NCBI RefSeq assembly: GCF_900182555.1
Contig: NZ_FXTH01000021.1
Location: forward strand, 1 to 53,968
Direction of reading: 5' to 3'
Length of the DNA: 53,968 nt
From: Fodinibius sediminis
Lineage (GTDB): Bacteria > Bacteroidota > Rhodothermia > Balneolales > Balneolaceae
A program made the position numbers and the translations under genes. Below, piece by piece: positions 4,921-53,968 of the stretch. Position 1 is the first letter of the stretch, and the number at the start of each line of letters is the position of its first letter. The notes under the pieces are model-generated. The model was not told the origin of the DNA and searched no databases. It saw nothing but the letters and a program-made list of their open reading frames with translations.

Positions 4921-4941
4921 AATTTGTATTTCGAAAATGGT

Positions 4942-35805: not shown

Positions 35806-35840
35806 AAAAAAAAGCCCATAACTATAAGCGAGTCATGGGC
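35806..35840 (-). terminator. Intrinsic terminator downstream of the tRNA-Arg 3' end
   Basis: On the minus strand GCCCATGACT (35840-35831) pairs with AGTTATGGGC (35823-35814) around a 7-nt loop with one mismatch, followed by eight Ts (35813-35806). It lies 12 bp beyond the tRNA 3' end. The original tRNA terminator has therefore stayed with the 3' fragment on the host side of the integration. Confidence 0.8.
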
Positions 35841-35851
35841 TTGTGGAGAAG

Positions 35852-35898
35852 TACGCCCGGAAGGATTCGAACCCTCAGCCTTCTGATCCGAAGCCAGA
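35852..35898 (-). other. Attachment site: 3' part of a tRNA-Arg(UCG) gene
   Basis: The minus strand reads anticodon stem-loop TCTGG-CTTCGGA-TCAGA (anticodon TCG), the variable region, the T-arm with GGTTCGAATCC, then acceptor half CGGGCGT and A. No acceptor 5' half or D-arm precedes it, so it is only the 3' part of a tRNA-Arg. This is the usual footprint (attR/attL) of a tyrosine-integrase element that inserts in a tRNA gene; the complete tRNA should lie at the far right end of the element. The fragment faces the host side, with the integrase on the other side. Confidence 0.8.
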
Positions 35899-36024
35899 TT
35901 TAAGCCATTTCCGTGGGTTTCCGAGCACGTACAAATATTTCGGTAAATCGTTGCATATCATGATTTTATAGCGTAATCTACTTCCGGGCGGTTACGGTCT
36001 TTTACGGGCCAAGCCAAGTATTCT

Positions 36025-36061
36025 GTTACCCAAATGTTACCCAAATTTCGATTTGGGTAAC
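36025..36061. promoter_or_regulatory. Direct and inverted GTTACCCAAAT repeats upstream of integrase
   Basis: GTTACCCAAAT occurs twice in tandem (36025-36035, 36036-36046). Its inverse ATTTGGGTAAC follows at 36051-36061 after a 4-nt spacer. Three 11-bp sites between the att site and the integrase suggest binding sites for integrase or the AlpA-type factor. Function inferred. Confidence 0.7.
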
Positions 36062-36084
36062 AGGAAATAAAACGCTGAACTAGT

Positions 36085-36123
36085 ACCCTGCCATGTCTGA
36101 TTTATGGTCAGACATGGCAGGGT
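36085..36123. promoter_or_regulatory. 16-bp perfect palindrome at the integrase start
   Basis: ACCCTGCCATGTCTGA (36085-36100) and its exact inverse TCAGACATGGCAGGGT (36108-36123) flank a 7-nt spacer. The most upstream possible ATG of the integrase (36104) lies in the spacer. It could be an operator or an mRNA hairpin that limits integrase expression. Confidence 0.75.
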
Positions 36124-36142
36124 TATTAATTTTAAAACTGCT

Positions 36143-37429: not shown

Positions 37430-37440
37430 CAGGGATAGGA

Positions 37441-38250
37441 ATGGATTTAGTTGATCGGGATATCATACAGCAAAAATATGATCGCTATGTGGAGCATTAC
37501 AATGAGTCAAACAATCTTATTGGTACTTATGCTGAGCTATTGACAATAAAAGAAGGTCTTCAACAGCGACTCCAAGAGTTAAATGAAAAGTTCGACCTGT
37601 TTATCGAGGATATTGAATACTATTTGGAGAAAATTTATGATCCTACTACCTCTTCGGACGGGAAAGACATAGAAGAGGATTTGATAGAATCCAACCATGT
37701 GAAGCTGGTAGAAAATATCATTGAGCATATCAAATGGGAAGTAGGCCACTTCTTACATATTTCCCAACCAAATGATTTTATCAATCAAAATTACAGGCAG
37801 ATTGAAAAAGTTTTCAATGCTTACCAACGCCATGGACAAGAGCAAAAAACGAAAAGAGCCTTGGAAGCTATAACTTTTTACGGAAAGGAATATGAGCAAG
37901 CTTATTACCATCTTAGAGGGATAAAGGCAGTTACGAATAAAATTATTGATGGAGACTATCCTACAGAGCTAAAGGATTATAGAGATCTGCAAGAACAGGA
38001 AAAGAAAGAGATTTCTGAAGAGTACATGCCTCATCATAATACTCGTGAAGGGTTAGTTGAGGACCTAAAGAAGGTTATTCATAATATTCAGACACAACCT
38101 CGGTTTTTTCATAAAGATGGTACAATTAAGCATACTACCGTAGCAGGATATGCTGTTTCCCAAAAATGGTTTGCCGATAAGCATGGTTATGGGGAGAGGG
38201 GCCTTCATGGGCATATTAAAAAAATAAGCGAGGGTATGAAGAGTACATGA
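37441..38250 (+). CDS. Hypothetical coiled-coil protein of the element
   Basis: A 269-aa cytosolic protein, rich in charged residues and predicted mostly helical. It begins MDLVDRDIIQQKYDRYVEHY, and coiled-coil-like heptads run over ~25-60 (LTIKEGLQQRLQELNEKFDLF). The C-terminal part is globular (HKDGTIKHTTVAGYAVSQKW, GYGERGLHGHIKKI). I recognise no family. It begins 11 bp after the integrase stop and is probably cotranscribed, so a role in element mobility or its control is possible. Confidence 0.65.
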   Translation: MDLVDRDIIQQKYDRYVEHYNESNNLIGTYAELLTIKEGLQQRLQELNEKFDLFIEDIEYYLEKIYDPTTSSDGKDIEEDLIESNHVKLVENIIEHIKWEVGHFLHISQPNDFINQNYRQIEKVFNAYQRHGQEQKTKRALEAITFYGKEYEQAYYHLRGIKAVTNKIIDGDYPTELKDYRDLQEQEKKEISEEYMPHHNTREGLVEDLKKVIHNIQTQPRFFHKDGTIKHTTVAGYAVSQKWFADKHGYGERGLHGHIKKISEGMKST

Positions 38251-38338
38251 ATAGTACTTACTCTTCTTAATCTTTTACGTGCAGTACCGGTAACATGCGG
38301 TCAGTTACAAACGAAAACACTAAAAGTAATTGACCGTT

Positions 38339-38539
38339 ATGGAAAAATTAATACGCCCACAAGTACTAGCAGACCAATTAGGAATCGGCCTATCTACCCT
38401 TTATGACAGGATGAAGGAGCCTGACTTTCCTCGAAAAGTCCAGATCTCGAAAAATGCCGTTGGATTCCGTGAGTCTGAAATCATGGAATGGATAGAAGCT
38501 AATACCGAAAATAAAGCAACCCATAAATTAGTGGAGTAA
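38339..38539 (+). CDS. AlpA-family helix-turn-helix regulator/excisionase
   Basis: Start taken at ATG 38339 (MEKLIRPQVLADQLGI); a TTG three codons upstream is possible. The 66-aa protein is a single winged-HTH of the AlpA/MerR-like excisionase type: QVLADQLGIGLSTLYDRMKE (the HTH), PDFPRKVQISKNAVGFRESE and IMEWIEA. Such proteins activate P4-type integrases or act as directionality factors. The stop codon overlaps the next start (TAATG). Confidence 0.9.
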   Translation: MEKLIRPQVLADQLGIGLSTLYDRMKEPDFPRKVQISKNAVGFRESEIMEWIEANTENKATHKLVE

Positions 38540-38808
38540 TGAGGTTAGACCTACTAGAGGTAGGTGTGATCTCTAATACCATCACCATGGAGGCAAGCAA
38601 CAAAAATGGTGAAGAGGTATGCCTACCTGAATTCCCGGATCACGTACATAAGGATGCCCAAAGTATTGCTGAGTCATATCGTCAACTAGGTGACCAGCCT
38701 AATGCATTTGAGCCTAATCTACCATACGTAAGGGAAAAGTATCCTGCCTTTGAATGGCCTGTAACAAGAAAATTAATACAAAACTACTTTTTAAAATGCA
38801 GCAATTAA
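38539..38808 (+). CDS. Small hypothetical protein
   Basis: An 89-aa acidic protein with no signal or TM segment. It begins MRLDLLEVGVISNTITMEAS and contains FEPNLPYVREKYPAFEWPVT. Not recognised. Its start overlaps the AlpA stop by one base and its end overlaps the start of the SF3 helicase gene by 13 bp, so it is probably a real coupled gene. It may relate to the short N-terminal modules found before P4-type primases. Confidence 0.5.
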   Translation: MRLDLLEVGVISNTITMEASNKNGEEVCLPEFPDHVHKDAQSIAESYRQLGDQPNAFEPNLPYVREKYPAFEWPVTRKLIQNYFLKCSN

Positions 38809-40232
38809 CACCTGAAATATTAAAGAATGGTGTGTTAAAACACGCCAAGCCACCCTCCCCTACGCCTCACGAAGAAGTACTCAAAAAGCTCCTTGGTATG
38901 GTAGAGGACGTGAACTTTTACCAGGAAGCTGGAACCGATAAGCCCAATAAGAAGCACTATGTAGTAATTGCGATTGAGAAAATATTAGAGCTCGCTGAGA
39001 ATAATAACTGGGGGTTATGCAAAAAGCATGACTTTATATACCTGTACAATGGGGCTTATTGGAGCCAACTTGAGGAAGACCAATTGGAGACTTTCTTAGG
39101 TCAAGCAGCCCGAAAAATGGGGGTCAATAAATTTGATGCCCATTACTATCAATTTCGTGAAAAGTTGCTAAAGCAATTTATGAGTTTTGCTCATCTACCA
39201 ACTCCAGAAAAGCCGGACGAGCTTGTTCTTATAAACCTTAAGAATGGAACCGTTGAAATTAATCCAGCGAGCAAAGTGCCGGTTAAGATTCGCCCTCCCA
39301 AGCAAGCGGATTTTTTAACATATCAACTACCGTTCAGATATGATAATAAGGCGTCTTCGCCAAGATTTACCAAGTATTTGGATGAGGTACTACCTGATAG
39401 GGATATGCAGCAGTTGCTTGCTGAGTTTGTTGGGTATGTTTTTGTTAATACATCTACACTTAAGCTTGAAAAAGCGTTAATACTACTTGGTCCGGGCGGG
39501 AATGGCAAGAGCGTGTTTTTTGAGATTGTCAATGCCCTCCTTGGTAATGAAAACGTCTCCACCTATACTCTTCAGTCGTTAACAGATAAATCTGGATACT
39601 ATCGGGCAAAGTTGGCTAACCGACTAGTTAATTATGCGAGTGAGATCAATGGGAGTATGGATACGGCCCTTTTTAAGCAACTGGTCTCGGGAGAACCTGT
39701 TGAAGCTCGCTTACCCTACGGCGAGCCCTTCACCCTCACCGACTATGCCAAGCTCATCTTTAACTGCAACGAGCTACCTACCGATGTAGAACATACCAAT
39801 GCCTTTTTTCGACGATTTATGATTGTTCCTTTTGACAAAACCATCCCCGAAGACCATCAGGACAAAGAGTTAGCCGCGAAGATTATTCGAAATGAGCTTT
39901 CCGGGGTGTTTAATTGGGTCTTGGATGGACTTCAACGGCTTTTAAAGCAAAGAGGATTCACCTCCTGCGAAACAGTAGAGAAACAAAACGAAAAGTATCG
40001 CATGGAGTCAGATTCAGTGCTGAAGTTTTTGAATGAAAGTGAATATGTGAAGTCTATTGAATTATATGTAAGGTTATCAAAGATCTTTAGTGAATATAAA
40101 GGATTTTGCGGTGAAGACGGTTACTATCCGGTAGGGAAGAGTAAATTTAAAAAGCGACTTGAAAATAGTGGAATCAAGGTGATGCGGAAATCGGTTGGCA
40201 ATGTTGTTTATCTAAGGAAGCCCCAACAATAA
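38796..40232 (+). CDS. P4-type SF3 DNA helicase/primase-associated protein
   Basis: Start taken at ATG 38796 (MQQLTPEILKNGVLKH), giving 478 aa; a frame from 38754 runs further into the previous gene. The SF3 helicase core has Walker A ILLGPGGNGKSVFFEIVN (~229-246), then YYRAKLANRLVNYASEING (Walker B region), sensor-like KLIFNCNELPT and FFRRFMIVPFDKTIPEDHQD. Poxvirus-D5/P4-alpha proteins of this type initiate replication of phages, satellites and plasmids. No full primase domain is present in it. The element can therefore probably replicate after excision. Confidence 0.92.
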   Translation: MQQLTPEILKNGVLKHAKPPSPTPHEEVLKKLLGMVEDVNFYQEAGTDKPNKKHYVVIAIEKILELAENNNWGLCKKHDFIYLYNGAYWSQLEEDQLETFLGQAARKMGVNKFDAHYYQFREKLLKQFMSFAHLPTPEKPDELVLINLKNGTVEINPASKVPVKIRPPKQADFLTYQLPFRYDNKASSPRFTKYLDEVLPDRDMQQLLAEFVGYVFVNTSTLKLEKALILLGPGGNGKSVFFEIVNALLGNENVSTYTLQSLTDKSGYYRAKLANRLVNYASEINGSMDTALFKQLVSGEPVEARLPYGEPFTLTDYAKLIFNCNELPTDVEHTNAFFRRFMIVPFDKTIPEDHQDKELAAKIIRNELSGVFNWVLDGLQRLLKQRGFTSCETVEKQNEKYRMESDSVLKFLNESEYVKSIELYVRLSKIFSEYKGFCGEDGYYPVGKSKFKKRLENSGIKVMRKSVGNVVYLRKPQQ

Positions 40233-40351
40233 AAACTTTTCTTTTGAACCTGCATTTGTTACATCAGCTACACAGTACCTTGACTTAAACGATGTAGAAG
40301 CCTTTCGGATGTAGGAAATGCAAGAAATGTAGCTCTATAAAAAACTTTTTT

Positions 40352-41344
40352 ATGAGACAGGATATTACAACATATCGTTACAGACTTGACGCGAGTAGTA
40401 AGAAGTTCCAGTGTCCACAATGCCGAAAGAAGAGGTTTGTCAGATATAAAGACTATCAAACCAGTAAGTATATTGATGATGAATATGGACGTTGTGACCG
40501 TGAAGGTAGTTGTGGGTATTTTAAGGATCCGTACAGGAATGGCTATGGGCAAGAGGATGATTCCTATTGGCACCAAGGAAGCGTTTTAAAAGCAGAACCC
40601 CAACGTATCGACCACATACCTCAAAAGTTTTTTACGGCCAGTTTAAAAGGCTATAACCAAAATTACTTTATCCAATATCTGCACTCGCTTTTTGACAGAG
40701 AGGTTGTTCAAGAGCTCATAAACACCTACCACATTGGCACTTCCAAACACTGGGATGGAGCAACGGTCTTTTGGCAAATTGATATCCAGGGTAGGATTCG
40801 CACTGGTAAAGTAATGCTATATGATACCTATGGCCGTAGAGTCAAAGACCCTTACCCACACATAAATTGGGTGCATAGCTTATTGTATGAGAGTTATAAT
40901 CTTCAGCAATGTTTGTATGGTGAGCATCTGTTAACAGATGATAAAAGAATTCCTGTGGCCATAGTTGAGAGTGAGAAAACGGCTATAATTAGTAGTGCTT
41001 ACTTTCCTGAATTTACGTGGCTCGCTGCAGGCTCCAAGTCCAACTTAAAACCAGAGCTTTGTAAGTGTTTAATGGGACGAAGTGTGACGCTATTTCCTGA
41101 TTTAGGAGCTTATCAGGATTGGCAAGAAAAAGCGAAAAGTCTATCATACTTTTGTGACATTAGAGTTTCGGATATCCTTGAAGCAAGTACTGATAGTAAT
41201 GACAAAGAAGAAGGATATGATTTAGCTGATTATTTGATTCAGTATAAGGTTGATGAATTTCTTAAAGCCGCAGAGTCTATTAACACTAATGTTGAAGTTG
41301 TACTAAACGAAAAGGGATATCCAGCTTCCTGGGATGATCTTTGA
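40352..41344 (+). CDS. Zinc-ribbon/Toprim primase-like protein (DUF6371-like)
   Basis: A 330-aa protein. Residues ~18-52 form a zinc-binding ribbon, FQCPQCRKKRFVRYKDY...RCDREGSCGYFKDP, like primase CHC2/zinc-beta-ribbon domains. The central part is DUF6371-like, and ~205-260 has Toprim features: VAIVESEKTAIISSAYFPEF and LAAGSKSNLKPE, then TLFPDLGAYQDWQEKA with the acidic pair. It probably supplies priming functions to the neighbouring SF3 helicase, 119 bp upstream. A 388-bp gap follows before the AbiE pair, in which I see no gene. Confidence 0.75.
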   Translation: MRQDITTYRYRLDASSKKFQCPQCRKKRFVRYKDYQTSKYIDDEYGRCDREGSCGYFKDPYRNGYGQEDDSYWHQGSVLKAEPQRIDHIPQKFFTASLKGYNQNYFIQYLHSLFDREVVQELINTYHIGTSKHWDGATVFWQIDIQGRIRTGKVMLYDTYGRRVKDPYPHINWVHSLLYESYNLQQCLYGEHLLTDDKRIPVAIVESEKTAIISSAYFPEFTWLAAGSKSNLKPELCKCLMGRSVTLFPDLGAYQDWQEKAKSLSYFCDIRVSDILEASTDSNDKEEGYDLADYLIQYKVDEFLKAAESINTNVEVVLNEKGYPASWDDL

Positions 41345-41732
41345 TAGTTATTTAGAATTGGGCTAAAGCTATTGTTTGTTGGTAATTCTTCCCATTTGCT
41401 CAGGTCCATTTTTTTCAATTAAAATGACAGGGGCCCAAGCTCATAACCTCTTATAAAATTCTGGAGTATTGGGACAAGATTCTTTTTTAGGCAATTATAT
41501 TTCTAATTATTGGCAGTAAACAAAGAATAGTGCCGAAATATAGATATGATTGGCTATTCCGATGACATAATATTTTGATGATGATATAAGTAATGTCATT
41601 ACACGAACTTAAATGAAAGGGGCTATCGCCAGATTGATGAATTTAGATTTAGGCTATTCAATAATAGTTTGTTTTTAAATAATATTTTAGTTATTAACTG
41701 CAAAAGGGGTCGAACTTCCGCCCATTTTGTAG
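41345..41732. other. Intergenic region, replication genes to AbiE module
   Basis: No gene is seen. It is strongly AT-rich just before the AbiEi gene and should hold the promoter and autoregulatory operator expected for AbiE systems. I could not identify a clear inverted repeat. Confidence 0.4.
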
Positions 41733-41747
41733 GTGAAAACTAAAATT

Positions 41748-42557
41748 ATGGCTAATAATCACTACGAATACTTAGATTCATTTTTGGATCGGCAAAGAAG
41801 CCGGGGGCGTTTTACCTTTACCGCAGATGAGGTAAAGAAAGAGTTTGAGTTGTCTGAAAATGCTTTTAAAAAAACGACTCAGCGATTACTTGAACAGAAC
41901 AAAATTTCTCGACTACGGAATAAGTTCTACTTAATAATACCACCTGAATATTCTACGCGACAGACCCTTCCCCTTGGATATTTCATTGATGATCTAATGA
42001 CCTTTCTGGATCGTGAATATTATGTTGGTCTATTAACGGCCGCCATGTACCATGGGGCCGCCCATCAACAACCACAGCAGCAATTTATCGTTCATGATTC
42101 ATCCTACCTTCGTCCTATAGACAATCGGCGTCAATCTATAGTGTTTTGTTTAAAAAAAGAGTGGGATAAAAAAGATATCCAAGAGCAAAAAACAGATGCA
42201 GGTTTTATAAATATTTCATCACCTGAGCTAACAGCTTTTGACTTGTTATTTTATGTAGATCGGATTGGCGGATTTAATAGAGCAGCTACCGTTTTATCTG
42301 AATTAGAAAGTAATATTGAATCGTCAGATCTCTTTAAAGCAGCACAAAGATTCAACCAAACCACGACCCTTCAACGATTAGGATATATATTTGATGAGGT
42401 GCTCAGTAAAGCTAAATTAGCAGATGCTATTTTTGAAGCTCTTGATGAACGTACATTTTATCCTACTAAACTAAGTACGTCTGAAGAAAGCGATAATCAA
42501 CGCACTCCAAATCGTTGGAAAGTAATACCGAACATAGAGATAGAAGCAGAATTATGA
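41748..42557 (+). CDS. AbiEi-type antitoxin (type IV toxin-antitoxin)
   Basis: Start taken at ATG 41748 (MANNHYEYLDSFLDRQ); a GTG five codons upstream is also open. The 269-aa protein has an N-terminal winged-helix domain (FTFTADEVKKEFELSENAFKK, ISRLRNKFYLIIPPEY). The C-terminal AbiEi domain reads YYVGLLTAAMYHGAAHQQPQQ, INISSPELTAFDLLFYVDRIG and YIFDEVL. AbiEi proteins repress their own operon and counteract AbiEii. The stop codon overlaps the toxin start (ATGA), the standard coupling. Confidence 0.92.
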   Translation: MANNHYEYLDSFLDRQRSRGRFTFTADEVKKEFELSENAFKKTTQRLLEQNKISRLRNKFYLIIPPEYSTRQTLPLGYFIDDLMTFLDREYYVGLLTAAMYHGAAHQQPQQQFIVHDSSYLRPIDNRRQSIVFCLKKEWDKKDIQEQKTDAGFINISSPELTAFDLLFYVDRIGGFNRAATVLSELESNIESSDLFKAAQRFNQTTTLQRLGYIFDEVLSKAKLADAIFEALDERTFYPTKLSTSEESDNQRTPNRWKVIPNIEIEAEL

Positions 42558-43351
42558 TACCGAAGGCTTATATAGATGCTTGGCGTACTACAGCTCCTTG
42601 GCAACAAGATGCACAAATAGAACAAGATCTGGTTATTTCAAGAGCATTAGTAGAACTGTTTTCAAATGATTTTTTAAGAGAACATCTTGCCTTCCGGGGT
42701 GGGACAGCTCTACACAAATTATTCTTACATCCTCAGGCTCGCTATTCAGAAGACATTGATCTGGTTCAGCTCAAGGAAGGTCGTATTAAACCTATACTCG
42801 AAGCTATCCACGATCAATTGTTATTCTTGGGAGGAAAAGAAGACCGAGACGTGCAATCAGCTGATCATAATTGGACTGTGTATTATTCCTTCGAAACGGA
42901 ATATCCGCCGCCACCAGAGATGCGTATTAAAATTGAGATTAATACAAGGGAGCACATAAATATATTAGATTTAAATGAAGAGAGATTTACTGTTGAAAAT
43001 CGGTGGTTTAGCGGTTCCGCAGATATCGTGACCTATCAGCCAGAAGAACTGTTGGGGACCAAGCTTCGAGCTTTATATCAGCGTAAAAAGGGGCGCGATC
43101 TTTTTGATCTCCATTATGCTCTTACACATCTTGAAGTTGATACTGGAAGTATTATTCGTTGTTTCCAGGCATATATGGAAGAAAATGACAACCGACCGCC
43201 CACGGGTAGAGAGTTTGAACTCAATTTGGAAGAAAAGATGCAAGACCGAGAATTTACCGGAGATATTAAGGCTTTATTGCGTCCTGAGATTAAATACGAC
43301 CAAGATAAAGCTTATGAACATGTTTTTAATTCATTAATTCGGAATATTTAA
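42554..43351 (+). CDS. AbiEii-type nucleotidyltransferase toxin
   Basis: A 265-aa toxin of the AbiEii family, which blocks growth by nucleotide transfer, shown for relatives to act on tRNA. Start ATG 42554 overlaps the antitoxin TGA. The nucleotidyltransferase core is LAFRGGTALHKLF (~50-62) followed by RYSEDIDLVQL (~68-78, Asp-x-Asp). The distal motif, YQPEELLGTKLRALYQRKKGRDLFDLHYAL, is also typical. With AbiEi it forms an abortive-infection system, placed directly upstream of the large helicase/methylase genes. Confidence 0.93.
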   Translation: MIPKAYIDAWRTTAPWQQDAQIEQDLVISRALVELFSNDFLREHLAFRGGTALHKLFLHPQARYSEDIDLVQLKEGRIKPILEAIHDQLLFLGGKEDRDVQSADHNWTVYYSFETEYPPPPEMRIKIEINTREHINILDLNEERFTVENRWFSGSADIVTYQPEELLGTKLRALYQRKKGRDLFDLHYALTHLEVDTGSIIRCFQAYMEENDNRPPTGREFELNLEEKMQDREFTGDIKALLRPEIKYDQDKAYEHVFNSLIRNI

Positions 43352-43439
43352 TTGCACATTTAAAATCTTTCTTAGTCAATCCTTCAAATTTTACATATTG
43401 TTGAGCAGATTGGCTTTTATTTAAATTAACCTCTTCGTT

Positions 43440-46400
43440 GTGGACATATTTGATATTCATCAACAGATAATCGGGGAATACGAATCTTTTGTAGAATCTT
43501 TTATTGATTTAAAAGATGACAAAATAAGACAAAAGGTAGATCAAGAGCTAAGTGAAGGGAAGCTTTGGCCTGAACCTCTTATTCAATTTAATCCCTCCTA
43601 TAAAAAAGGTGAAAGCGTAAAGAACCTTTGTAAGCAGGGGGTTCTGCATCCAGAATTGAGTAATATTTTTGAAGGTTACGATCTGTATGAGCATCAAGTT
43701 AAAGCTTTAAAGCTGGGGACGAATGCTGAGGATTTCATTGTAACCTCGGGTACAGGATCAGGGAAGTCATTAACTTATTTGGGTACTATTTTTGATTATG
43801 TATTGCGTAATCCCAATGAGAGAGGGGTTAAAGCAATTATAGTTTATCCTATGAATGCCCTGATTAATTCTCAGTATAATGAAATAGAAAAGTATGAGAG
43901 TAATTACATAGAATCCGGCAAGGAGTTTCCAATCCAGTTTGCACAATATACGGGTCAGGAAGGTGATACTGAACGAGAACGTATTATTGAAGAACAACCA
44001 GATATAATCCTAACCAACTACATGATGATGGAACTCATCATGACAAGGCTTAGAGAAAAAAATCTGAGAGAAAGTTTTAAACAGTCACTGAAGTTTTTGG
44101 TATTTGATGAGCTTCATACCTATAGGGGGCGTCAAGGTTCAGATGTAGCAATGCAAATTAGACGAATTAGAAGTGCTTGTAAGAACGATTTAGTATGTAT
44201 AGGTACTTCAGCTACCATGGCTACCGGTAGTACACTGTTAGAGCAAAGAGAGGCAGTAGCAGATGTAGGTAAAACTATTTTCGGGAAAAAGTTTACCGAA
44301 GATCAAGTTATAGATGAGGCATTTGAATTGGGATTTGAAGAGCTTGACCCCGAAGAGAAAAAACATAAACTGATACAGGCCCTTAATGAAGAAATTGATA
44401 TAAATGATGGGGTAGAAAAGCTTAAAAAGAATGCTTTAGGGGCTTGGCTGGAACGTGATATCGGACTACAAAAGAAGGAAAGTCAATATGTTCGTCAAAA
44501 ACCCAGGACGCTTAATGAAATTTCTGAAGAGTTATCAAACCTTACTGGGATTGACGTAGATCAATGTACTCAAAAAATCCGGAGGTTTTTAAAATGGGCA
44601 GAGCGTATAAATGTAGAGAATGAAAAAAATAATGTTCGACAAAAATGGCTACCCTATAAATTACACCAATTTATATCCCAAACTGGTTCAGTCCATGTAA
44701 AATTAAAAAGCCCAGCAAAACGGGATATTGATGAAGACATAAAGTTAGATGCCGGTTATTTTACTGTAGAAGAGGGGGAATCTGTTCCATTGTATCCTAT
44801 GGTATTTAGTCGGGCTTCGGGTCACGAGTTTATCTGCGTAAAGAAAAATGAAGTTGACCTTACATTGGAACAACACGATTTCAATGAGCAAACTTCAGAA
44901 GAGGATGAAGAGCATGACTTGAGTAGTGGTTATATTGTTTTTGACCACGAAGAGCCGGTGTGGGCATATGACGATATCGTATATTTGCCAGATTCCTGGA
45001 AAACAAAAAAAGGAGGGATTCGAAAGAAGTATAAAGAAAAGGTCCCTCAAGAAATATGGGTAGATGTATATGGAAACTATTCGCTTACCAAAGAGGAAGG
45101 TTACGAGAAAGCTTGGTTTATAAGATCTCCATTGCCATTTGATCCTACAGCTGGAGCGTTTTTCCATGGGGGTACCAGTGAATATACAAAGCTTACTAAG
45201 TTAGGGAGTGAGGCAAGAAGTACAGCTACTTCAGTAATATCCCAGGCGACAATTAAGGCGTTAAAAGAGGCGAATTATAACAAAGAAGCGAGTAAGCTAT
45301 TAAGCTTTACTGATGTTCGTCAAGATGCCTCTTTGCAGGCCGGTCATTTTAATGACTTTACAAAAACAATACGTTTAAGAGCAGCAATTCACAAAGCATT
45401 AAAGGAAGCTGATAATAATACTTTAGATCATGCTGTTATAGCTCAATCTGTTTTTAAAGCACTAAACTTAAGGGAGGAAGAGTATGCTGTTAATCCTATA
45501 GATCCTGATGCCTTTCACGTAGTTAATAGGAATGAAGAGGCTCTTAAAACGAAGTTATTGTATGATTTACTTTATGATCTGAAGTATGGATGGAAAGTAA
45601 CATTACCCAACCTTGAACAGTGTGGATTGCTTAAAATTGACTACGGTCATTTAGAGGAAATAAGTAAACAAGAACAATGGAAGGATATTCCCGGATTTTC
45701 TGAAATGATACCGGAGCAACGGCGCGAAATTCTATATCAAATTTTAGACTATTTCAGAAAGAAATTTGCTGTTGCCCATGAAGCATTAAATCCTGACACA
45801 ATAGAAGAGAACGAGAAGAAAATTAAAAACACTCTGAACGAAGAATGGGGGTTTGATAAGAGTGAACGTATTGAAAGGCCAAATTGGATGCGTTTTCGTC
45901 CATTTGATAGAAAACCCAGTCAAATACCCACCGAAAGTATTGGATATCTCAGTAGATTAGGACGCTATCTTAAAGAATTACCTGAATTAGAAGATCACAT
46001 AACTGATAAAGATTCTTATGAGAACTTATTAGGGACTCTATTAGATAAGCTCCGTGGTACGTATTTTTCTGTTAAGGAGGTTACTGATAGAGGTTCTGGA
46101 GAGACGAAAAAACTCTATCAGTTGTTGGCTGATCCTATAGTTTGGGAACTTGGTGATGGTGAAACATTAATGGATGACCCTGTTCATAACAGATCGTACA
46201 AAGAAACGGAAGATCAGATAAACACCTATTTCCGTGACTTGTATAAGAACCAATTGAATTATGATCTATTTTTTAACGGCTCTGAGCATACTGGCCAAAT
46301 TAATAATGAACAGCGCCAAAATAGAGAGGGAGAATTTAAAAAAGGCGATATAAATGCTCTTTTTTGTTCCCCCACTATGGAGTTAGGGATTGATATTGCT

Positions 46401-48560
46401 GATCTTAATGTAGTTCATATGCGTAATGTGCCACCGAACCCGGCAAACTATGCACAAAGAAGTGGTCGTGCTGGCCGGAGTGGACAAGCAGCATTAGCAT
46501 TCACCTACTGCGCAAACTATTCTTCACACGATCGCCACTATTTTAAAAACTCAAAAGATATGGTGGCTGGAGAAGTGTTGCCTCCTCGTATGGATATGCA
46601 GAATGAGGAGCTTGTAATGAGTCATCTAAATGCTATCTGTTTATCTGAGGTAGGTTTAAGAGATTTAAATGATTCAATAGCAAATGTCCTTGACTTGGGA
46701 GATGAAGATGTTTTACCGATAAAGGAAGAGGTAAAGTTAAAGTTTGATCTATCTGACAAAAAGAAACGTAACATTAAAAAGCTATTCAATTTTGTAATAT
46801 CTGATATAAAAGATGACTTAGCTTGGTATTCTGAAGAATGGTTGGAAAGTAAGATAAATAATGTCTTTGGCAGGTTTAATGAGGCCCTGGAACGATGGCG
46901 ATCACTATATAAAGATGCCGTTTCACAACGGAGAAGGGCTCAAAATATCCTCGATAATCCTACGTATAAAGCAGGAAGTAGCGAAAAGAAATTAGCAGGA
47001 ATAAATGAAGATCAAGCAAGGCGACAAATTTCTTTGCTGAAAAATGAATATCGCAAAGGTGGGAGCCTTTCGGAGTTTTATCCTTATCGCTACTTAGCCT
47101 CAGAAGGGTTTTTACCGGGATATAACTTTACCAGACTTCCTATTCGAGCCTATATGCCTTCAAACGACATTAGTATGGAGGGTGACTACTTGTCTCGACC
47201 AAGGAATATTGCTTTAAGGGAGTTCGGACCCGGAAACATTATATATCACAATGGTTCTACCTATTCAGTTACAAGGATGAATGTCAATGATGCATCCAAA
47301 GAACTAACGAGGGCAAAAGTAGCAAAGAAGAGTGGTTATATTCTCGATGGGAAAGATTTTGAAAACGAGCTTTGTCCCTTTACGAAAGAACAGCTTGACG
47401 ATGATAATTCCAGAGAGATTATCAATAATTTGACCCACATGGGAGAGGTACAAACGAGGCCACGTAAAAGAATTTCTTGTAATGAGGAAGAAAGACAATC
47501 TCGCGGTTATGAAATTGATACCTACTTTAAGGTAGATGGAAGTATGGATCGCGTTAAAAATATTGAGCTTAAAGGCAGTGAAGGTAATTTAATGACTATG
47601 AGATACATTCCTGCAGCTCAACTCTATTTTATTAATAGAAAGTGGCGCACATCTACAGAGAAAGGATTCCTGCTTAACCTAACTACGGGAGAATGGGCTA
47701 AAGGAAATAAAGCTGATAAAGAAAAAGAAGAATCAGTTGATGAGTTTGCGAATGTACAGCTTTATGTAAGGGATACTGCGGATGCTATTTATTTACATCC
47801 TACTTCAACTCTTGGTTTGGAATATGAAGGGGTAATAACACTCCAATACGCCTTAAAAAATGCTATTGAGCAAGTGTTTAGAGTAGAGCCCAATGAAATT
47901 CGTGTGGAACTTATGGGAGATAAAGAAGCTCCCAATATTCTTGTGTATGAAGCATCAGAAGGAAGTTTAGGTGTTTTAAAAACACTGGCTGATCAACCCA
48001 AGAAATTTAGGGAAGTAGTAGAAAAGGCATATGAAATTTGCCACTTTACCAAACCTAAAAAAGAGGAAAAGGAGCTGCCTCAGGCATCTTACGATGATTT
48101 GCTAAGCTATTATAACCAATACCATCATAAGCTATTAGATCGTCATAAGATAAAAGGGTCTTTGGAACTGCTTAAAGTGGCTGAGCCGGATCCGAAAAAG
48201 AAAGGAACGAATAGAAATTATTCAGAGCAATTGGAATACCTTCGGGAGCGAATAGATCCAAACTCGAGCCTTGAAAAAGAGTTCTTAGATTATCTTGCAG
48301 ATAACGGTCTTTCTCTACCTGATAAGGCCCAATATGATGTGAGCGAACTATATGTCAATGCTGATTTCTTTTATGAACCCAATGTAGTCATTTTTATTGA
48401 CGGTAATGTTCATGATAAGCCTGGTGTACAGAGTGGGGACGAGAAGAAACGTAAAGCCCTTCGCAAAAAAGGATATCAGGTACTGGTATATCGTTATGAT
48501 CAAGATCTTAATACATTTGTAGAAAGCCGTCCGGATATATTTCAAGAAGTTCAAATTTAG
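43440..48560 (+). CDS. Giant DEAD-box helicase with DUF1998 region and C-terminal nuclease-like domain
   Basis: A 1706-aa cytosolic protein starting with GTG; no in-frame ATG precedes the helicase motifs. The SF2 core has Walker A TSGTGSGKS (~103), DELH (~221), TSATMA, and the C-terminal lobe SPTMELGIDIADLNVVHMRN and QRSGRAGRSGQ (~1005). The lobes are separated by a ~700-residue insert. A DUF1998-like region follows (~1430-1560: VYEASEGSLGVL, LLSYYNQYHHKLLDRH), but the Cys pair usual before LLSY is S/D here. The end (~1630-1700) resembles a Vsr/DUF559 nuclease: NADFFYEP, IFIDGNVHD, RKALRKKGYQVLVYRYD. It compares with a DrmA-DrmB fusion (DISARM) or with DruE (Druantia). Confidence 0.85.
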   Translation: MDIFDIHQQIIGEYESFVESFIDLKDDKIRQKVDQELSEGKLWPEPLIQFNPSYKKGESVKNLCKQGVLHPELSNIFEGYDLYEHQVKALKLGTNAEDFIVTSGTGSGKSLTYLGTIFDYVLRNPNERGVKAIIVYPMNALINSQYNEIEKYESNYIESGKEFPIQFAQYTGQEGDTERERIIEEQPDIILTNYMMMELIMTRLREKNLRESFKQSLKFLVFDELHTYRGRQGSDVAMQIRRIRSACKNDLVCIGTSATMATGSTLLEQREAVADVGKTIFGKKFTEDQVIDEAFELGFEELDPEEKKHKLIQALNEEIDINDGVEKLKKNALGAWLERDIGLQKKESQYVRQKPRTLNEISEELSNLTGIDVDQCTQKIRRFLKWAERINVENEKNNVRQKWLPYKLHQFISQTGSVHVKLKSPAKRDIDEDIKLDAGYFTVEEGESVPLYPMVFSRASGHEFICVKKNEVDLTLEQHDFNEQTSEEDEEHDLSSGYIVFDHEEPVWAYDDIVYLPDSWKTKKGGIRKKYKEKVPQEIWVDVYGNYSLTKEEGYEKAWFIRSPLPFDPTAGAFFHGGTSEYTKLTKLGSEARSTATSVISQATIKALKEANYNKEASKLLSFTDVRQDASLQAGHFNDFTKTIRLRAAIHKALKEADNNTLDHAVIAQSVFKALNLREEEYAVNPIDPDAFHVVNRNEEALKTKLLYDLLYDLKYGWKVTLPNLEQCGLLKIDYGHLEEISKQEQWKDIPGFSEMIPEQRREILYQILDYFRKKFAVAHEALNPDTIEENEKKIKNTLNEEWGFDKSERIERPNWMRFRPFDRKPSQIPTESIGYLSRLGRYLKELPELEDHITDKDSYENLLGTLLDKLRGTYFSVKEVTDRGSGETKKLYQLLADPIVWELGDGETLMDDPVHNRSYKETEDQINTYFRDLYKNQLNYDLFFNGSEHTGQINNEQRQNREGEFKKGDINALFCSPTMELGIDIADLNVVHMRNVPPNPANYAQRSGRAGRSGQAALAFTYCANYSSHDRHYFKNSKDMVAGEVLPPRMDMQNEELVMSHLNAICLSEVGLRDLNDSIANVLDLGDEDVLPIKEEVKLKFDLSDKKKRNIKKLFNFVISDIKDDLAWYSEEWLESKINNVFGRFNEALERWRSLYKDAVSQRRRAQNILDNPTYKAGSSEKKLAGINEDQARRQISLLKNEYRKGGSLSEFYPYRYLASEGFLPGYNFTRLPIRAYMPSNDISMEGDYLSRPRNIALREFGPGNIIYHNGSTYSVTRMNVNDASKELTRAKVAKKSGYILDGKDFENELCPFTKEQLDDDNSREIINNLTHMGEVQTRPRKRISCNEEERQSRGYEIDTYFKVDGSMDRVKNIELKGSEGNLMTMRYIPAAQLYFINRKWRTSTEKGFLLNLTTGEWAKGNKADKEKEESVDEFANVQLYVRDTADAIYLHPTSTLGLEYEGVITLQYALKNAIEQVFRVEPNEIRVELMGDKEAPNILVYEASEGSLGVLKTLADQPKKFREVVEKAYEICHFTKPKKEEKELPQASYDDLLSYYNQYHHKLLDRHKIKGSLELLKVAEPDPKKKGTNRNYSEQLEYLRERIDPNSSLEKEFLDYLADNGLSLPDKAQYDVSELYVNADFFYEPNVVIFIDGNVHDKPGVQSGDEKKRKALRKKGYQVLVYRYDQDLNTFVESRPDIFQEVQI

Positions 48561-48580
48561 ATTTTAAGTAATAGCAAAGA

Positions 48581-51409
48581 ATGGATTATAAACCAGGTAC
48601 CTTAGTATCGGTACGAAACAGGAATTGGGTAGTACAGCCATCAAATAATGAACAACTTTTAAAATTACGTCCCCTTGGTGGTACAGAAACAGAAGAAACG
48701 GGAATCTACCTTCCATTGCTGGATGCGAAGGATCGTCCCAAGCCATTTCAATTCCCGTTACCTTCACCTGATAAGTTTGGAGATATCTCTTCTACCAATG
48801 TATTGTACAATGCAATAAGATTATCATTTAGAAATGGAGCGGGTCCGTTTCGTTCTTTTGGTAAACTCTCCTTTAGACCCAGAGCCTATCAGTTGGTGCC
48901 TCTAATTATGGCGTTGCGACAAGAAAAAACGCGAATACTTATTGCTGATGATGTGGGTATTGGTAAGACCATCGAAGCCCTTCTCGTTGTTAAGGAGAAA
49001 TTAGAACGAGGGGATATCGATAGTTTTTCTGTGGTTTGTCCACCGCACCTTTGTGATCAGTGGGCTAAAGAACTCGAAGAAAAATTCAATATCGATCCAG
49101 TCGTCATTCGCTCGGAGTCTATCTCCTACCTGGAGCGCAAGATGCCACCCGATACAATTATTTTTAATTATTTTCCGTATCAGGTTATATCTATTGATTA
49201 TATAAAACAGGATAAATATCGGCAGACTTTTATCAATGAGTGTCCGGAAATGGTGGTTGTTGATGAAGCCCATACTTGTGCAGAGCCACCAGGAGAACAC
49301 CGAAATACACAGATGCGTCATTCTCTAATCAAGGATATTTCTAATAAGGAGGGACAGGAATTATTACTTCTTACTGCAACACCTCACCGGGGATTTGAAA
49401 CATCCTTCCAATCAATATTGGGAATGCTGAAACCTGAATTCTCCGATGTTGAGATAGCAAACTCGGATCAAAAAACCCGAAGAGAATTGGCAAAGTATTT
49501 TGTCCAGCGAAGGCGTGGTGATGTTACTAAATGGATGGGGGAAGAAACGCAATTTCCTGATAGAGATTTTGAAGAGCTGGAGTACCAGTTAGGTAATGAT
49601 TACCAAGTTCTTTTTACAGATTTCCTTGGTTATGCAAAAGAGATGATACAGGCAGATACCGAGTCGAAGCATATTCATTACTGGACAGCACTTGGATTGC
49701 TGCGTGGTATCATCTCAAGTCCCACGGCAGGGGTTTCTATGTTGCGAAAACGAGCTAATAAAAAAGAAGATGAGTTGGACGAGGTCGATGATGAAACGGC
49801 CAAAATGTTGGTCTTAGATGATGACGAGCAGGATGAAGATGTGGAACCGACGGCCGTGACCTCATCACTTGAAGTAAAGCAAGCTGAAGCCCAACGATTG
49901 AGAAATTATGCCAATCGACTTGAAGACTTAGGCAAGCCATCTAAGGATAACAAGGTGAAGGCAGCGATTGACATCGTTGGGGAGTGGCTGCAGGACGGAT
50001 ACAATCCGATTATATTTTGCCGGTATATTTCTACTGCTCACTATGTGGCCGATCAAATTCGGGATAACTTGCCCTCAGGCTATATTCGTGATACCGAAGT
50101 CGAATCGGTTACCAGTGAATTAGCTGATGAGCAGCGAAAAGAAAAGGTTGAGGCTTTAGGCAAGCAGAAATATCGGGTGTTGGTTGCCACTGATTGCCTT
50201 AGTGAGGGAATTAACCTGCAGGATCACTTTACGGCTGTATTACACTATGATTTACCCTGGAATCCTAATAGAATTGAACAGAGAGAAGGTCGGGTGGATC
50301 GCTTTGGACAAATAGCTCCCAGGGTAAAAACAGCGCTCTTATATGGAGGAGGGAATCCAATTGATGCAACGGTGTTAAAGGTTCTACTGAGAAAAGCCCG
50401 ACAGATTAAAAAGGATACGGGAATTTCTATTCCATTTCCTGATGACAGTAAATCCATTATGGAAGCCGTTTTAAATGCAGTATTACTGAATCCCGGTTCC
50501 GTGAATACGGATATGAGCCAGTTGCAGCTTGGATTCCAGAATGAGGTGGTTAAAAAGGGAGCGGATCAAGCAAGCTTGGCTATAGAGCGTGCCAAAAGTC
50601 GTGAAGAAGCGACCAGGAGTATTTTTGCTCAGCGAGCTATCAAGCCAGAAGAAATTAAAGAGTACCTGGTTGATTCTGATGAAGCTCTTGGAAGTCCGGC
50701 TGATGTAGAAAAATTCGTAAAGGATGCCGCCGATTATATAGGGATTGAACTACGGCCGGTACCAAACAAATCCGATCAGTACTATCTGAATACGACACAG
50801 CTTTCAAAACGTCTTAGAGAACTATTGCCAGAAAAAGAGAAAATTAAGGTAGGATTTGAAGCGCCCTTGCCCGAAGATGTCTATTACCTGGGACGTAACC
50901 ATCCTTTTATTGAACAATTATCACAAAAAATTATGGGACTGACATTTCAGGACGAGGAGTCACCGTTTTCAAGAATGTCGGTTGTCCGAACGGACCAGGT
51001 AGATGTTAAAACAACCCTTTTGTTACTCCGGGTACGTAATGTTATTTCCAAGAAAAAGCGAAATAATGAGTTGGTAGCTGAAGAAATGGTGCTCTGGGGA
51101 TATAGAGGGGATCCTGAGGACGAGGATTTCCTGAATCATGACCATGTGAAAGAGTTACTGAACAAAGTAAAAGCAGTCGCAAACCTCTCTCAGCAGGAAA
51201 AAAAGTATTTTGCAGAAGCTGAATTGCGAGATTTTAAAAGCGAAAAAATGGAAGAAAGTTTAAAAGAACTTACCCGTGAACGAACGGAAGAGTTAATTGA
51301 GGCGCATGACCAATATCATGAAGCTGTAGGAGGGGGAAGATATACGGGAGTTGAACCTGTTCTGCCTCCCGATGTGATGGGTATGTATATCCTACTTCCG
51401 GCAGTGTAA
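48581..51409 (+). CDS. SNF2-type helicase, DrmD-like
   Basis: A 942-aa SF2/SNF2 ATPase. The N-terminal module (MDYKPGTLVSVRNRNWVVQP, LRPLGGTE) is typical of DrmD-like helicase-related proteins. Motifs: DDVGIGKTIEALLV (Walker A, ~122), VDEAHTCAEPPG (~227), LLTATPHRGFE (~265), then the C-terminal lobe with IIFCRYISTAHYVAD, VATDCLSEGINLQ and EQREGRVDRFGQ (~569). An acidic insert (DEVDDETAKMLVLDDDEQDED) lies between lobes near 400-430. It sits between the giant helicase (20 bp) and the methylase (30 bp) and is clearly one operon with them. In DISARM class 1 the equivalent protein is required for defence. Confidence 0.9.
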   Translation: MDYKPGTLVSVRNRNWVVQPSNNEQLLKLRPLGGTETEETGIYLPLLDAKDRPKPFQFPLPSPDKFGDISSTNVLYNAIRLSFRNGAGPFRSFGKLSFRPRAYQLVPLIMALRQEKTRILIADDVGIGKTIEALLVVKEKLERGDIDSFSVVCPPHLCDQWAKELEEKFNIDPVVIRSESISYLERKMPPDTIIFNYFPYQVISIDYIKQDKYRQTFINECPEMVVVDEAHTCAEPPGEHRNTQMRHSLIKDISNKEGQELLLLTATPHRGFETSFQSILGMLKPEFSDVEIANSDQKTRRELAKYFVQRRRGDVTKWMGEETQFPDRDFEELEYQLGNDYQVLFTDFLGYAKEMIQADTESKHIHYWTALGLLRGIISSPTAGVSMLRKRANKKEDELDEVDDETAKMLVLDDDEQDEDVEPTAVTSSLEVKQAEAQRLRNYANRLEDLGKPSKDNKVKAAIDIVGEWLQDGYNPIIFCRYISTAHYVADQIRDNLPSGYIRDTEVESVTSELADEQRKEKVEALGKQKYRVLVATDCLSEGINLQDHFTAVLHYDLPWNPNRIEQREGRVDRFGQIAPRVKTALLYGGGNPIDATVLKVLLRKARQIKKDTGISIPFPDDSKSIMEAVLNAVLLNPGSVNTDMSQLQLGFQNEVVKKGADQASLAIERAKSREEATRSIFAQRAIKPEEIKEYLVDSDEALGSPADVEKFVKDAADYIGIELRPVPNKSDQYYLNTTQLSKRLRELLPEKEKIKVGFEAPLPEDVYYLGRNHPFIEQLSQKIMGLTFQDEESPFSRMSVVRTDQVDVKTTLLLLRVRNVISKKKRNNELVAEEMVLWGYRGDPEDEDFLNHDHVKELLNKVKAVANLSQQEKKYFAEAELRDFKSEKMEESLKELTRERTEELIEAHDQYHEAVGGGRYTGVEPVLPPDVMGMYILLPAV

Positions 51410-51439
51410 GTATCATTGATTTAAGCAACGATTAATTTT

Positions 51440-53884
51440 ATGGATTCCTTTCAAAGCATAACTATTGAAGGCCAAATACTAAGTGCTGAAATACTTTCAA
51501 AACTGAGTCAAGAGGGGTATGACTATCAAACTCCTGAAGACTTTGGATTGGGCGAAAATCAGAAACTCCGTGATGAAATTCAGTTTGCCTATAGTTTAGC
51601 CCGCCAGCAGTGGGAAATTTTTAAGCAAAAGAAATCACGTTGGGAGGAATCGGAATGGGGTACCTCGGATACCCGAAACTATTGGATGCTACCGTTGCTG
51701 GATTCGCTGGGATACGAGCTGAGTTTTGAAAAAGCAGAAATGGTGAACGGCAAGAGCTATAATATCAGTCATCGTGGTATGGATCGCGGCGGGTTTCCGG
51801 TTCATATCATGAGTACGAAAGACAAGCTGGAACAAAAGCGTGATTATGGCGGATCCCGGCTGTCTCCACACGGATTGGTACAGGAATACCTGAATCTTAC
51901 TGAACACCTTTATGGACTGGTAACGAACGGTTCTAAATTACGTCTTCTTCGGGACTCTACCCGACTTTCGCGTCTATCATATGTAGAGTTCGATTTGGAA
52001 GCCATGTTTGAAGATGAACTGTACAGTGATTTTGCTGTTATGTTTCGACTCATCCATGCTAGCCGAATGCCCACACAGCCCGAAGAGAGTCCGGATTCTA
52101 TTATTGAGCAATATCACCAGGATGCAATTGAGTCTGGGGCGCGCATTCGTGAAAAGTTGCGTGGAAGCGTTGAGATTAGTTTGCAGACGCTGGGTAATGG
52201 TTTTCTGAAACATCCCGATAATGAAGAGCTTCGTCAGCTTATTGCCGATGGTGAAATAGACGCCACCAAGTTTTATGGAAAACTGCTGAAAATTATTTAC
52301 CGCCTGCTGTTTTTGATGGTATCGGAAGAGCGCAATATGATATATCCCAAACCGAAGGAGACTGACTGGGACGCGGAGCTGCTGCAGGAATATCGAGCTA
52401 TTTATAACAACTATTACAGCATTAACCGCTTGCGGTCGTTAGCGGAGCGAAAACATCAGCTCAATACCGATGAGGAAGATCTCTGGGAAAGTTTAAAACA
52501 GACCTTTGCTCTTTTTGAAAAAGAAGCCATTGGTCAGCGTTTAGGTATTCAGGCACTAAACGGAGACCTGTTTAGCCCGGCGGCCTTAGATCCGCTTTCT
52601 GAATGTAAGCTCACGAATGATGTACTGCTACGGAGCTTGGATGCTATTGCCCGTTTTGAAAACGAGAGCGGACAGTTAACGCGTGTTAATTACGGCGGGC
52701 TGGACGTGGAAGAGTTTGGATCGGTTTATGAAGCGTTACTGGACTATGATCCCAAAATTAAGAAGGGCGTTAATGTTTCTTTAGGAAGTGAATGGGCTTT
52801 TCAATTTGCTGAGGGTACAGAACGCAAAACAACGGGTTCTTACTATACACGAACCGAGCTGGTGCAGGAACTGATAAAATCAGCACTTGTTCCGGTTATT
52901 GAAGAGCGGCTGGAAGAAGCAGACAGTAAAGATGAGCGAATTCAGACGCTACTCGACCTGAAAATTTGCGATCCCGCGGTGGGATCGGGGCACTTTCTCC
53001 TGGCCGCAGCACGAAAGATTGCCGAATATTTAGCCAAAGAACGGACGGGAGAAGATCAGCCGGGACCTGATGCTCACAAGGAGGCTCGCAGAGAGGTTAT
53101 CCAGCACTGCATTTATGGGGTGGATATGAATCCCATGGCCGTGGAGCTTTGTAAGGTTGCCCTTTGGTTAGAGAGCCATTCAGTAGGATATCCATTGACA
53201 TTCCTCGATCATCATATCAAATGCGGTAATAGTTTGGTGGGACTTGATGATCTTGATCGATTGGATGAGGGAATCCCGGACGGTGCATTTGAGACGGTTA
53301 TTGGTGATGATAAAGGAATTGCTAAGAAGCTAAAGAAGCGAAATAGAAAAGAAAGAAAGTCTGGTAAGCAAACGGAACTACAGGCTTCTTCAGGTTCAGC
53401 GATACAGGCATTGGATCAATTCGCGAAGCGACTTAAAGAGATTGACCAAATGCCAGAGCAAACGGTTGAAGATATTAATGAAAAAGCCAAAGCTTATAAT
53501 CACTTCAAAAAGGAACAAGGATACAGGGATGCCCTGCATGCCGCTAATATATGGACAGGGGCTTTCTTTGTACAGAAAACCCAGAAAAACCTTGACAATA
53601 AACTGATACCAACAAGCCGTAAACTGCATTCTTATGTGGCAAATCCCCGAGGGGCCGATGCCAGATTCTTGGGAAAAATGGACTCGTTAGCCCAGAAGGA
53701 TAACTATTTCCACTGGCCGCTGGAATTCCCCGAAGTGCAAGCCCAGAATGGTTTTGATGTTGTTTTAGGGAATCCGCCTTGGGAACGCATTAAACTACAG
53801 GAGAAGGAATTCTTTAAAGGAAAGGATGATAAAATCGCAAACTCAAATAAGTCTAAAAGGAATAAATTAATAAGGGTCTTATGA
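51440..53884 (+). pseudogene. Eco57I/DrmMI/PglX-like adenine methylase, C-terminally truncated
   Basis: An 814-aa open frame of an N6-adenine DNA methyltransferase. It has a long N-terminal specificity/helical part, then SYYTRTELVQELI (~472), SAM-binding motif I DPAVGSGHFLLAAARK (~511-526), GVDMNPMAVELCKVALWLE and CGNSLVG. Catalytic motif IV VVLGNPPWERIKLQEKEFF is at ~773-791. Homologues of this type normally continue for several hundred residues after NPPW with the target-recognition region, but this frame stops 34 residues later. The following 84 bp match no methylase continuation in any frame, so the gene is probably interrupted or the frame damaged. In DISARM/BREX the methylase marks host DNA. 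Confidence 0.8.
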
Positions 53885-53968
53885 AGTTAAGCTCTCAAAG
53901 GGGGTCCTCTCGGAGCTTATCCAGTAAGACGTTATATAAGTTTTTATTTCGATGATTAAAACGGAATT
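53885..53968. other. Sequence beyond the methylase break, possible insertion
   Basis: No frame here continues the methylase. A short inverted repeat, TAAGCTC (53888-53894) and GAGCTTA (53913-53919), lies just inside. The most economical reading is the left end of an inserted mobile element, but no transposase or known end is visible in the 84 bases. Confidence 0.35.

Follow-up and report, generated by a model that had tools for sequence, protein, structure and literature searches.

The DNA analyzed, hereafter the window, is the whole of contig C21 (53,968 bp) of Fodinibius sediminis (assembly GCF_900182555.1, NZ_FXTH01000021.1). Three large open reading frames (ORFs) were encoded on the plus strand near its 3' end. 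The first (43440–48560), starting with GTG, encodes a giant ArmC-like helicase of the YprA family, 1706 amino acids (aa) in length; the second (48581–51409) encodes an ArmA-like SNF2/BrxHII-like helicase of 942 aa. The third, as called (51440–53884; 814 aa), is a truncated adenine methylase gene reading into the end of an insertion sequence (IS). The ORF coordinates confirmed the arrangement described in an earlier sequence-only reading of this DNA: all three genes are co-directional, with gaps of 20 bp between the helicase and SNF2 genes and 30 bp between the SNF2 and methylase genes. The window ends at 53968 because the contig ends there. With a probability of about 0.8, we assign the three genes to ARMADA Type I, as an anti-phage operon with equivalents of ArmC, ArmA, and ArmB and with the mechanism of DNA attack proposed below.

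The first ORF combined Pfam matches to DEAD (1.5e-24), Helicase_C (9e-16), and MZB (4.5e-6). MZB is the zinc-binding family of MrfA/DUF1998. The DEAD (RecA1) domain occupied residues 84–261 (43689–44222, plus strand), the Helicase_C (RecA2) domain residues 944–1015 (46269–46484, plus strand), and the MZB/DUF1998 domain residues 1468–1533 (47841–48038, plus strand). For comparison, 100 loci (L052–L071 and L107–L186) were collected: 20 from a sample of the phylum and 80 from named genomes, the latter being the best 80 of at least 582 relatives confirmed in the scan. The helicase alignment of 99 rows included 96 relatives of at least 1500 aa, the window protein, and two Escherichia coli proteins; L131, L146, L153, and L173, with helicases below 1500 aa, were excluded. 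Residues of the DEAD domain were retained almost throughout—K109 in 97 rows, D223 and E224 in 98 each, and H226 in 99—and R1010 and R1013 were present in all 99. Walker and arginine-finger residues are among these conserved positions. MZB was found by Pfam in 59/59 C-terminal regions tested, and full-length homologues had 34–50% identity. DruE3 was the best PADLOC model (289 bits), while the top listed DrmA model reached 43 bits. A profile search against solved structures retrieved the giant helicases 9tu7 and 9wae, followed by YprA/MrfA (6znp, 4.3e-38). The sequence-only reading had offered a DruE-like giant helicase or a DrmA–DrmB fusion; a single DruE-like protein with a DUF1998/MZB region was found, closer to DruE than to DrmA.

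The C-terminal part of the helicase (about residues 1606–1706; 48255–48557, plus strand) was assigned by Pfam and conserved residues to a putative DUF559/Vsr-like nuclease region. Among the C-terminal regions of 59 members, Pfam detected DUF559 in 30 (E-values down to 1.8e-7) and MTES_1575 in 9. The nuclease-like residues E1612, D1642, D1654, and H1658 were retained in 93, 95, 94, and 92 of the 99 rows, respectively. A Vsr-type PD-(D/E)xK nuclease domain is described at the C-terminus of the ARMADA YprA-like protein (PMC12458937). The earlier proposal that a nuclease is built into the helicase C-terminus is supported at the family level, where the domain appears nuclease-like.

The second protein contained SNF2-rel_dom and Helicase_C domains (Pfam). 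Its highest PADLOC score was with a model labelled DpdE (PDLC02853, 590 bits), followed by DrmD (310 bits) and BrxHII (192 bits); the NCBIfam DrmD model gave 331 bits, under its cut-off of 610. The previous naming of this gene as DrmD was accurate as far as the protein is DrmD-like, but the model labelled DpdE scored higher. The 5' part of the ArmB-like methylase gene (51440–53873, plus strand) encoded Eco57I and N6_Mtase domains (Pfam), carrying the motif DPAVGSG at 511 and the motif NPPW at 778; DrmMI was the best PADLOC model (293 bits), and PglX matched weakly (37 bits). Its DrmMI-like nature was thus correctly predicted, but the gene, taken as intact, is interrupted.

A shared 7-bp duplication and the adjoining of both halves in homologues show that the methylase gene is split by an insertion of IS1595 type and that its 3' half is located on contig C34 (L188, 5905–8178, minus strand; assigned by homology). 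The last 95 bases of the window (53874–53968, minus strand) form one end of an IS1595-family element, recognized from its repeat copies and cut by the contig end. It is preceded by the target duplication TTAATAA (53867–53873), and this 7-bp sequence, on the opposite strand, also stands ahead of the second IS end, on C34. Both methylase parts matched 30 homologues, in which the junction varied from 9 residues of overlap to 34 residues apart. The IS end recurred at 9 other places in the genome, at 7 of them with at least 96% identity. An intact copy on C20 encoded a transposase (DDE_Tnp_IS1595, 5.5e-33) and was also flanked by a 7-bp duplication; two other left ends with a readable terminus (C17, C22) matched right ends on C11 and C9. 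The 5' part of this IS type was present at 7 contig ends (89–93% identity), and C7, C5, C6, and C1, where the patterns gave no terminus, were excluded from the duplication comparison. An intact short methylase of 814 aa was ruled out by the IS end and the partner contig C34.

A search of the same genome for the 3' half with the methylase of a relative (L052) missed C34, and the half was found via the target duplication; the query of the missed search has a recognition domain of the MmeI type. Two kinds of recognition halves were observed: the MmeI_TRD type (L052, L135) and that of C34, matching mostly methylases from the zinc-bearing loci described below. These sequences suggest that specificity modules may have been exchanged among the methylases.

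The gene order was analyzed in the helicase clade of the window. The SNF2 gene was next after the helicase gene in 42 of its 46 other loci, the remaining 4 reaching a contig end within 272 bp. The methylase gene was among the following genes in 36 of these 42, and the remaining 6 reached a contig end 0.6–2.9 kb downstream. The order helicase–SNF2–methylase is not due to chance; it recurred, as the sequence-only reading had proposed to check, in 42/42 and 36/36 clade loci with enough downstream DNA. In other rows of the alignment, the SNF2–methylase pair was found upstream of the helicase (L157, L163, L167), and such a placement is given for some Type I loci (PMC12458937). As a side observation, the slot between the SNF2 and methylase genes, with no gene in the window, held extra genes in L053, L113, L115, L116, L123, L125, L130, and L155, encoding Fic, Schlafen AlbA_2 (3 loci), PD-(D/E)XK, PLD, SMC-like ATPase, and GmrSD_N proteins; of the 10 loci scanned, L054 and L120 were without a Pfam match.

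ARMADA Type I is described as a YprA-family helicase with a fused nuclease, a BrxHII-like helicase, and a PglX-like methylase (Bell et al. 2025 preprint, PMC12458937), and also with BrxA-like, beta-barrel, and MarR-like inserts (PMC12458937). The gene content and the order YprA–BrxHII–PglX are the same in the window, and a putative nuclease is likewise fused to the helicase C-terminus: a YprA-like helicase and a DUF1998 region are united in one protein, and the BrxHII/RapA-like helicase gene and the PglX-like methylase gene follow, the latter being IS-split in this genome. The window differs from the described system in that its clade lacks three Cys4 sites and in that the methylase of this genome, besides being split, continues in frame into an antitoxin-like tail. 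Tested in E. coli, the related ARMADA Type II comprises the same three protein families in the order SNF2, methylase, YprA, with a fourth gene, ArmD, and an ArmC of 2113 aa.

As a control, we used E. coli ATCC 8739 (NC_010468), a strain in which PMC12458937 places both ARMADA Type II and Druantia III; its ArmC, ArmB, ArmA, and DruE were assigned from the gene order in the preprint. ArmC of this strain ranked the models in the same way as the window helicase, with DruE3 at 348 bits and DrmA at 49 bits. Because the SNF2 and methylase genes of the window and of E. coli ARMADA top different models, PADLOC 2.0.0 labels scatter ARMADA operons over several systems, and not always alike.

The combination had previously been proposed as an undescribed hybrid of DISARM and Druantia. 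This claim failed, since the same three-gene content and order are published as ARMADA Type I (PMC12458937); a described subtype with these three genes, which the sequence-only reading had named as the result that would overturn it, does exist in substance, though under the name ARMADA and not as a DISARM or Druantia subtype. Filing under either system was rejected on the ranking of hidden Markov models, the missing components, and the published precedent. If the operon were a class 1 DISARM variant, its helicase would be a DrmA–DrmB fusion, with the built-in nuclease replacing DrmC, accompanied by DrmD and DrmMI. The PADLOC scores of the DrmD-like and DrmMI-like proteins and the NCBIfam DrmD match, below cut-off as it was, agree with this, but DrmA was a minor match of the helicase in comparison with DruE3. 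DISARM class 1 has separate DrmA and DrmB and usually DrmC (PMC12458937), whereas one fused protein is encoded here; in accordance with the earlier prediction, no separate DrmB gene was found in the part of the window examined or on the continuing contig C34, and no DrmC (PLD nuclease) gene among the genes examined at 38754–53884 or on C34. The combination is, moreover, published as a separate class with a helicase nearest to Druantia (PMC12458937), and we regard a DISARM variant as very improbable.

Assignment to Druantia, as a subtype with a DruE-like helicase at its core, is hardly better placed. Druantia and the window both have a single giant YprA-family helicase, and DruE models topped the ranking, but the same DruE ranking was given by ArmC of E. 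coli, whose place in ARMADA is published. The constant partners here are SNF2 and methylase genes, which are not in Druantia III of ATCC 8739, where the large helicase gene stands beside a gene of the STY4851 family. DruE of Druantia III is described as paired with DruH and not with an SNF2–methylase pair, and as carrying PLD domains and zinc clusters (PMC13192584); DruE with its own partners was not found, no systematic search for DruH having been made. Housekeeping DNA repair by MrfA/YprA-like genes, the least probable explanation of all, is favored by the presence of MrfA/YprA among the nearest solved structures. The patchy distribution speaks against it: helicase matches at E ≤ 1e-50 were present in 31 of 395 genomes of the phylum and in none of the 8 listed genomes from the same genus. 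So do the carriage on a mobile element with exchanged cargo and the defence homologues of all three genes (PADLOC), the latter bearing out the initial description of a defence-type operon.

Several results weigh against the assignment to ARMADA Type I or against its details. DUF559 in the window helicase itself had an E-value of 0.0013 and 19.0 bits, below the cut-off of 20.6; matches to Vsr-like enzymes among PDB sequences were not significant (3hrl, 0.56; 3r3p, 0.67); and E. coli ArmC has F in the alignment column of H1658. C21, the IS, and C34 are joined on the evidence of homology and of the 7-bp duplication rather than by a sequenced junction. E. coli ArmA matched DrmD best (331 bits) and the DpdE-labelled model at 135 bits, the reverse of the window SNF2 protein, and E. 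coli ArmB matched Type IIG models best (922 bits) with DrmMI at 191 bits, while DrmMI was best for the window methylase. As references, the trees contained ArmC of E. coli Type II and DruE of Druantia III, both on very long branches; the Type I reference WP_108720193.1 was not among them. Finally, the phage tests of PMC12458937 concern Type II, not Type I.

The second result on the helicase family concerns zinc. The 99-row alignment showed three clear Cys4 sites; in the numbering of the window helicase, they lie near residues 457/460/568/571, 1295/1298/1312/1315, and 1534/1546/1550/1553. The columns of the last site, just past the MZB domain, read C, L, S, and D in the window, so one of the four cysteines of the DUF1998 cluster remained. 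The rows were divided without intermediates: 52 had at least 8 of the 12 cysteines, and 47, including the window, had 3 or fewer. In a FastTree phylogeny of the 99 rows with the 12 cysteine columns removed, the 47 zinc-less rows were on one side of a branch (support 99), requiring one change of state against a mean of 33.2 after shuffling. An IQ-TREE phylogeny of 42 rows and 736 columns united the 20 zinc-less rows in one clade (100/100); with the root placed on the two E. coli proteins, this clade fell within the zinc-bearing rows. The direction of the change, loss of zinc, rests on these two outgroups, both with very long branches, and on the usual presence of zinc in the family. The SNF2 tree also split off the zinc-less group (support 97, one change; 40 versus 28 rows), and the methylase tree required two changes for the zinc state (34 versus 25 rows).

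The replacements were largely conserved. At the barrel site, the zinc-less rows had S (47/47), S or T (47/47), D (47/47), and a mixed fourth column (S 25, A 9, C 8, G 5); the final two DUF1998 ligands were S or T in 45/47 and D in 44/47. Cysteine was retained in one column of the OB site in 29/47 rows and in one DUF1998 column in 35/47. Thus, all three Cys4 sites, the DUF1998 cluster included, were replaced largely by conserved Ser, Thr, and Asp in the clade of the window (47/99). The DUF1998 Cys4 cluster is described as characteristic of the entire YprA family and lost in Dpd, which is still kept in the family (PMC12458937); the main text of this preprint names such a loss solely for Dpd and gives none for ARMADA. 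Zinc clusters of DruE stabilize elements beside the DNA channel and are thought to shape its DNA-engaged state (PMC13192584). The canopy modules of the zinc-less clade would fold without zinc.

Judging from ARMADA Type II of E. coli and from further relatives, the methylase would mark host DNA at the sites that it recognizes. Foreign, unmarked DNA would be engaged by the BrxHII-like and YprA-like helicases, a division of labour taken from relatives, and is predicted to be cut by the nuclease domain of the YprA-like protein. The mode of protection would be direct attack on DNA rather than suicide. The E. coli Type II system gives non-abortive protection for which all four genes are needed, ArmB being essential (PMC12458937). 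Since the methylase is split in F. sediminis and ArmB is required in E. coli, the present copy is probably crippled or inactive. A further step would be to consider the locus a decaying remnant, whose function was ended by the IS, leaving selection to act only on toxin–antitoxin pairs or other cargo. The split methylase, the requirement for ArmB in E. coli, and the presence of several IS on the element agree with this, but both helicase genes are intact; we find the arguments evenly balanced. Such decay concerns this strain only, so it is compatible with the assignment of the operon to ARMADA Type I. The IS-split methylase of this genome suggests that a cell with both helicases intact may survive the loss of an intact ArmB-like protein.

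The operon is cargo on an exchangeable element with an integrase and a P4-type primase, integrated in a tRNA-Arg gene. Carriage of ARMADA by tRNA-integrated elements is shown for Type II (PMC12458937). The left boundary of the element (35837–35928, minus strand) contains a tRNA-Arg 3' fragment (35846–35898, 96% to contig C15): the tRNA called at 35851–35928 is such a fragment (96% over 53 bp) with an unrelated 5' half, and an intact tRNA-Arg(TCG) is located on C15. This is the pattern expected for a tRNA-integrated element, and it confirms what the sequence-only reading had recognized. The element encoded a tyrosine integrase (36104–37429, plus strand; Phage_integrase, 3.8e-21), a P4-family primase/helicase-like protein (38754–40232, plus strand; TIGR01613, 2.1e-51; DUF5906), and a DUF6371 protein with an N-terminal zinc ribbon (40352–41344, plus strand; Pfam 1.1e-62 and 1.4e-20). 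The AbiE pair noted earlier directly upstream of the three large genes was verified by PADLOC and Pfam: an AbiEi-like antitoxin (41733–42557, plus strand; 8.6e-95; AbiEi_1) and an AbiEii-like toxin (42515–43351, plus strand; 1.1e-112; AbiEii).

The genome of a sister species in the same genus (G081, locus L231) was collinear with the window at 35837–41439 (92%) and 41482–42563 (94%), the collinearity breaking at 42563, just within abiEii. The left flank (32481–34937) was found in G081 about 14 kb away from the collinear stretch. The common backbone includes the integrase, a 269-aa protein, the P4-type primase, the DUF6371 protein, and AbiEi. In place of AbiEii and ARMADA, G081 carried the Type I restriction genes HsdR, HsdM, and HsdS with the Pfam domains EcoEI_R_C/HSDR_N, HsdM_N/N6_Mtase, and Methylase_S. 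The tRNA-Arg site seems to have been used repeatedly, because further tRNA-Arg fragments were present on C18 (31247–31335 and 33853–33900) and a phage-type integrase gene (1.2e-32) adjoined the intact tRNA-Arg on C15 (8856–8908).

On C34, the methylase 3' half, an antitoxin-like tail, and a 126-aa gene occupied positions 5519–8178 of L188 (minus strand; helix-turn-helix/DUF433 tail and PIN-like gene). The ORF ran about 244 residues in frame beyond the usual end of the methylase, and this tail matched DUF433 (2e-11) and chain 5af3, named VapBC49 (1.1e-8); we take it to resemble VapB45. The 126-aa gene began 5 bases after the stop of the fusion ORF. It had no Pfam match and a 23-bit match to a PIN-like profile of genes located 3' of stand-alone antitoxins of the same kind; of the 11 ORFs in this profile, one (L199, 2161–2460) overlaps out of frame, and the E-value obtained with the profile applies to a set of two sequences. 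No other match in the 395 phylum genomes spanned both methylase and antitoxin, so the fusion, found in one genome only, may be a private loss of a stop codon. In the loci compared, the antitoxin part was found only on C34 and, weakly (20.7 bits), in a 75-aa ORF of L172; elsewhere, its matches look stand-alone. The match in G091 was listed within an open frame of 748 aa, but in L200 the ORF has 236 aa and a stop separates the preceding frame. A possible antitoxin-like tail of the Meiothermus methylase (L164) was without Pfam support. With no second case in the 395 genomes, a methylase–antitoxin fusion as a general ARMADA feature was unsupported. It is unlikely, in our opinion, that a VapB-like antitoxin serves as a C-terminal domain of the methylase, such that methylase damage or blockage by a phage frees the PIN-like toxin and a suicide switch is added to a system of direct DNA attack based on the zinc-free helicase lineage. 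In L156 (16266–20678), an ARMADA-type methylase was fused C-terminally to Peptidase_S24 (4.7e-7). The methylase tail may be a site of fusions.

Further genes of C34 encoded a DpdF/PsyrT-like helicase whose C-terminus matched PDC-S68 (L188, 1601–3538, minus strand), an FRG-domain protein matching PDC-S15 in PADLOC (4612–5493, minus strand), a 282-aa protein, and a Mutator-family transposase. The helicase and the FRG-domain protein are likely to be more defence cargo of the same element.

The gene content and order of this locus are already known from the published description of ARMADA Type I (PMC12458937), whereas the zinc-less clade, the IS-split methylase, the antitoxin fusion in one genome, and the exchange of cargo with Type I restriction genes are new here. 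A false call of a new system is removed: genes scoring as DruE, DpdE/DrmD, and DrmMI in PADLOC 2.0.0 together constitute ARMADA. Zinc sites that have been taken to characterize every branch of the family are replaced at three places in one broad lineage that keeps its operon, and the natural occurrence of zinc-bearing and zinc-free helicases makes the role of zinc directly testable.

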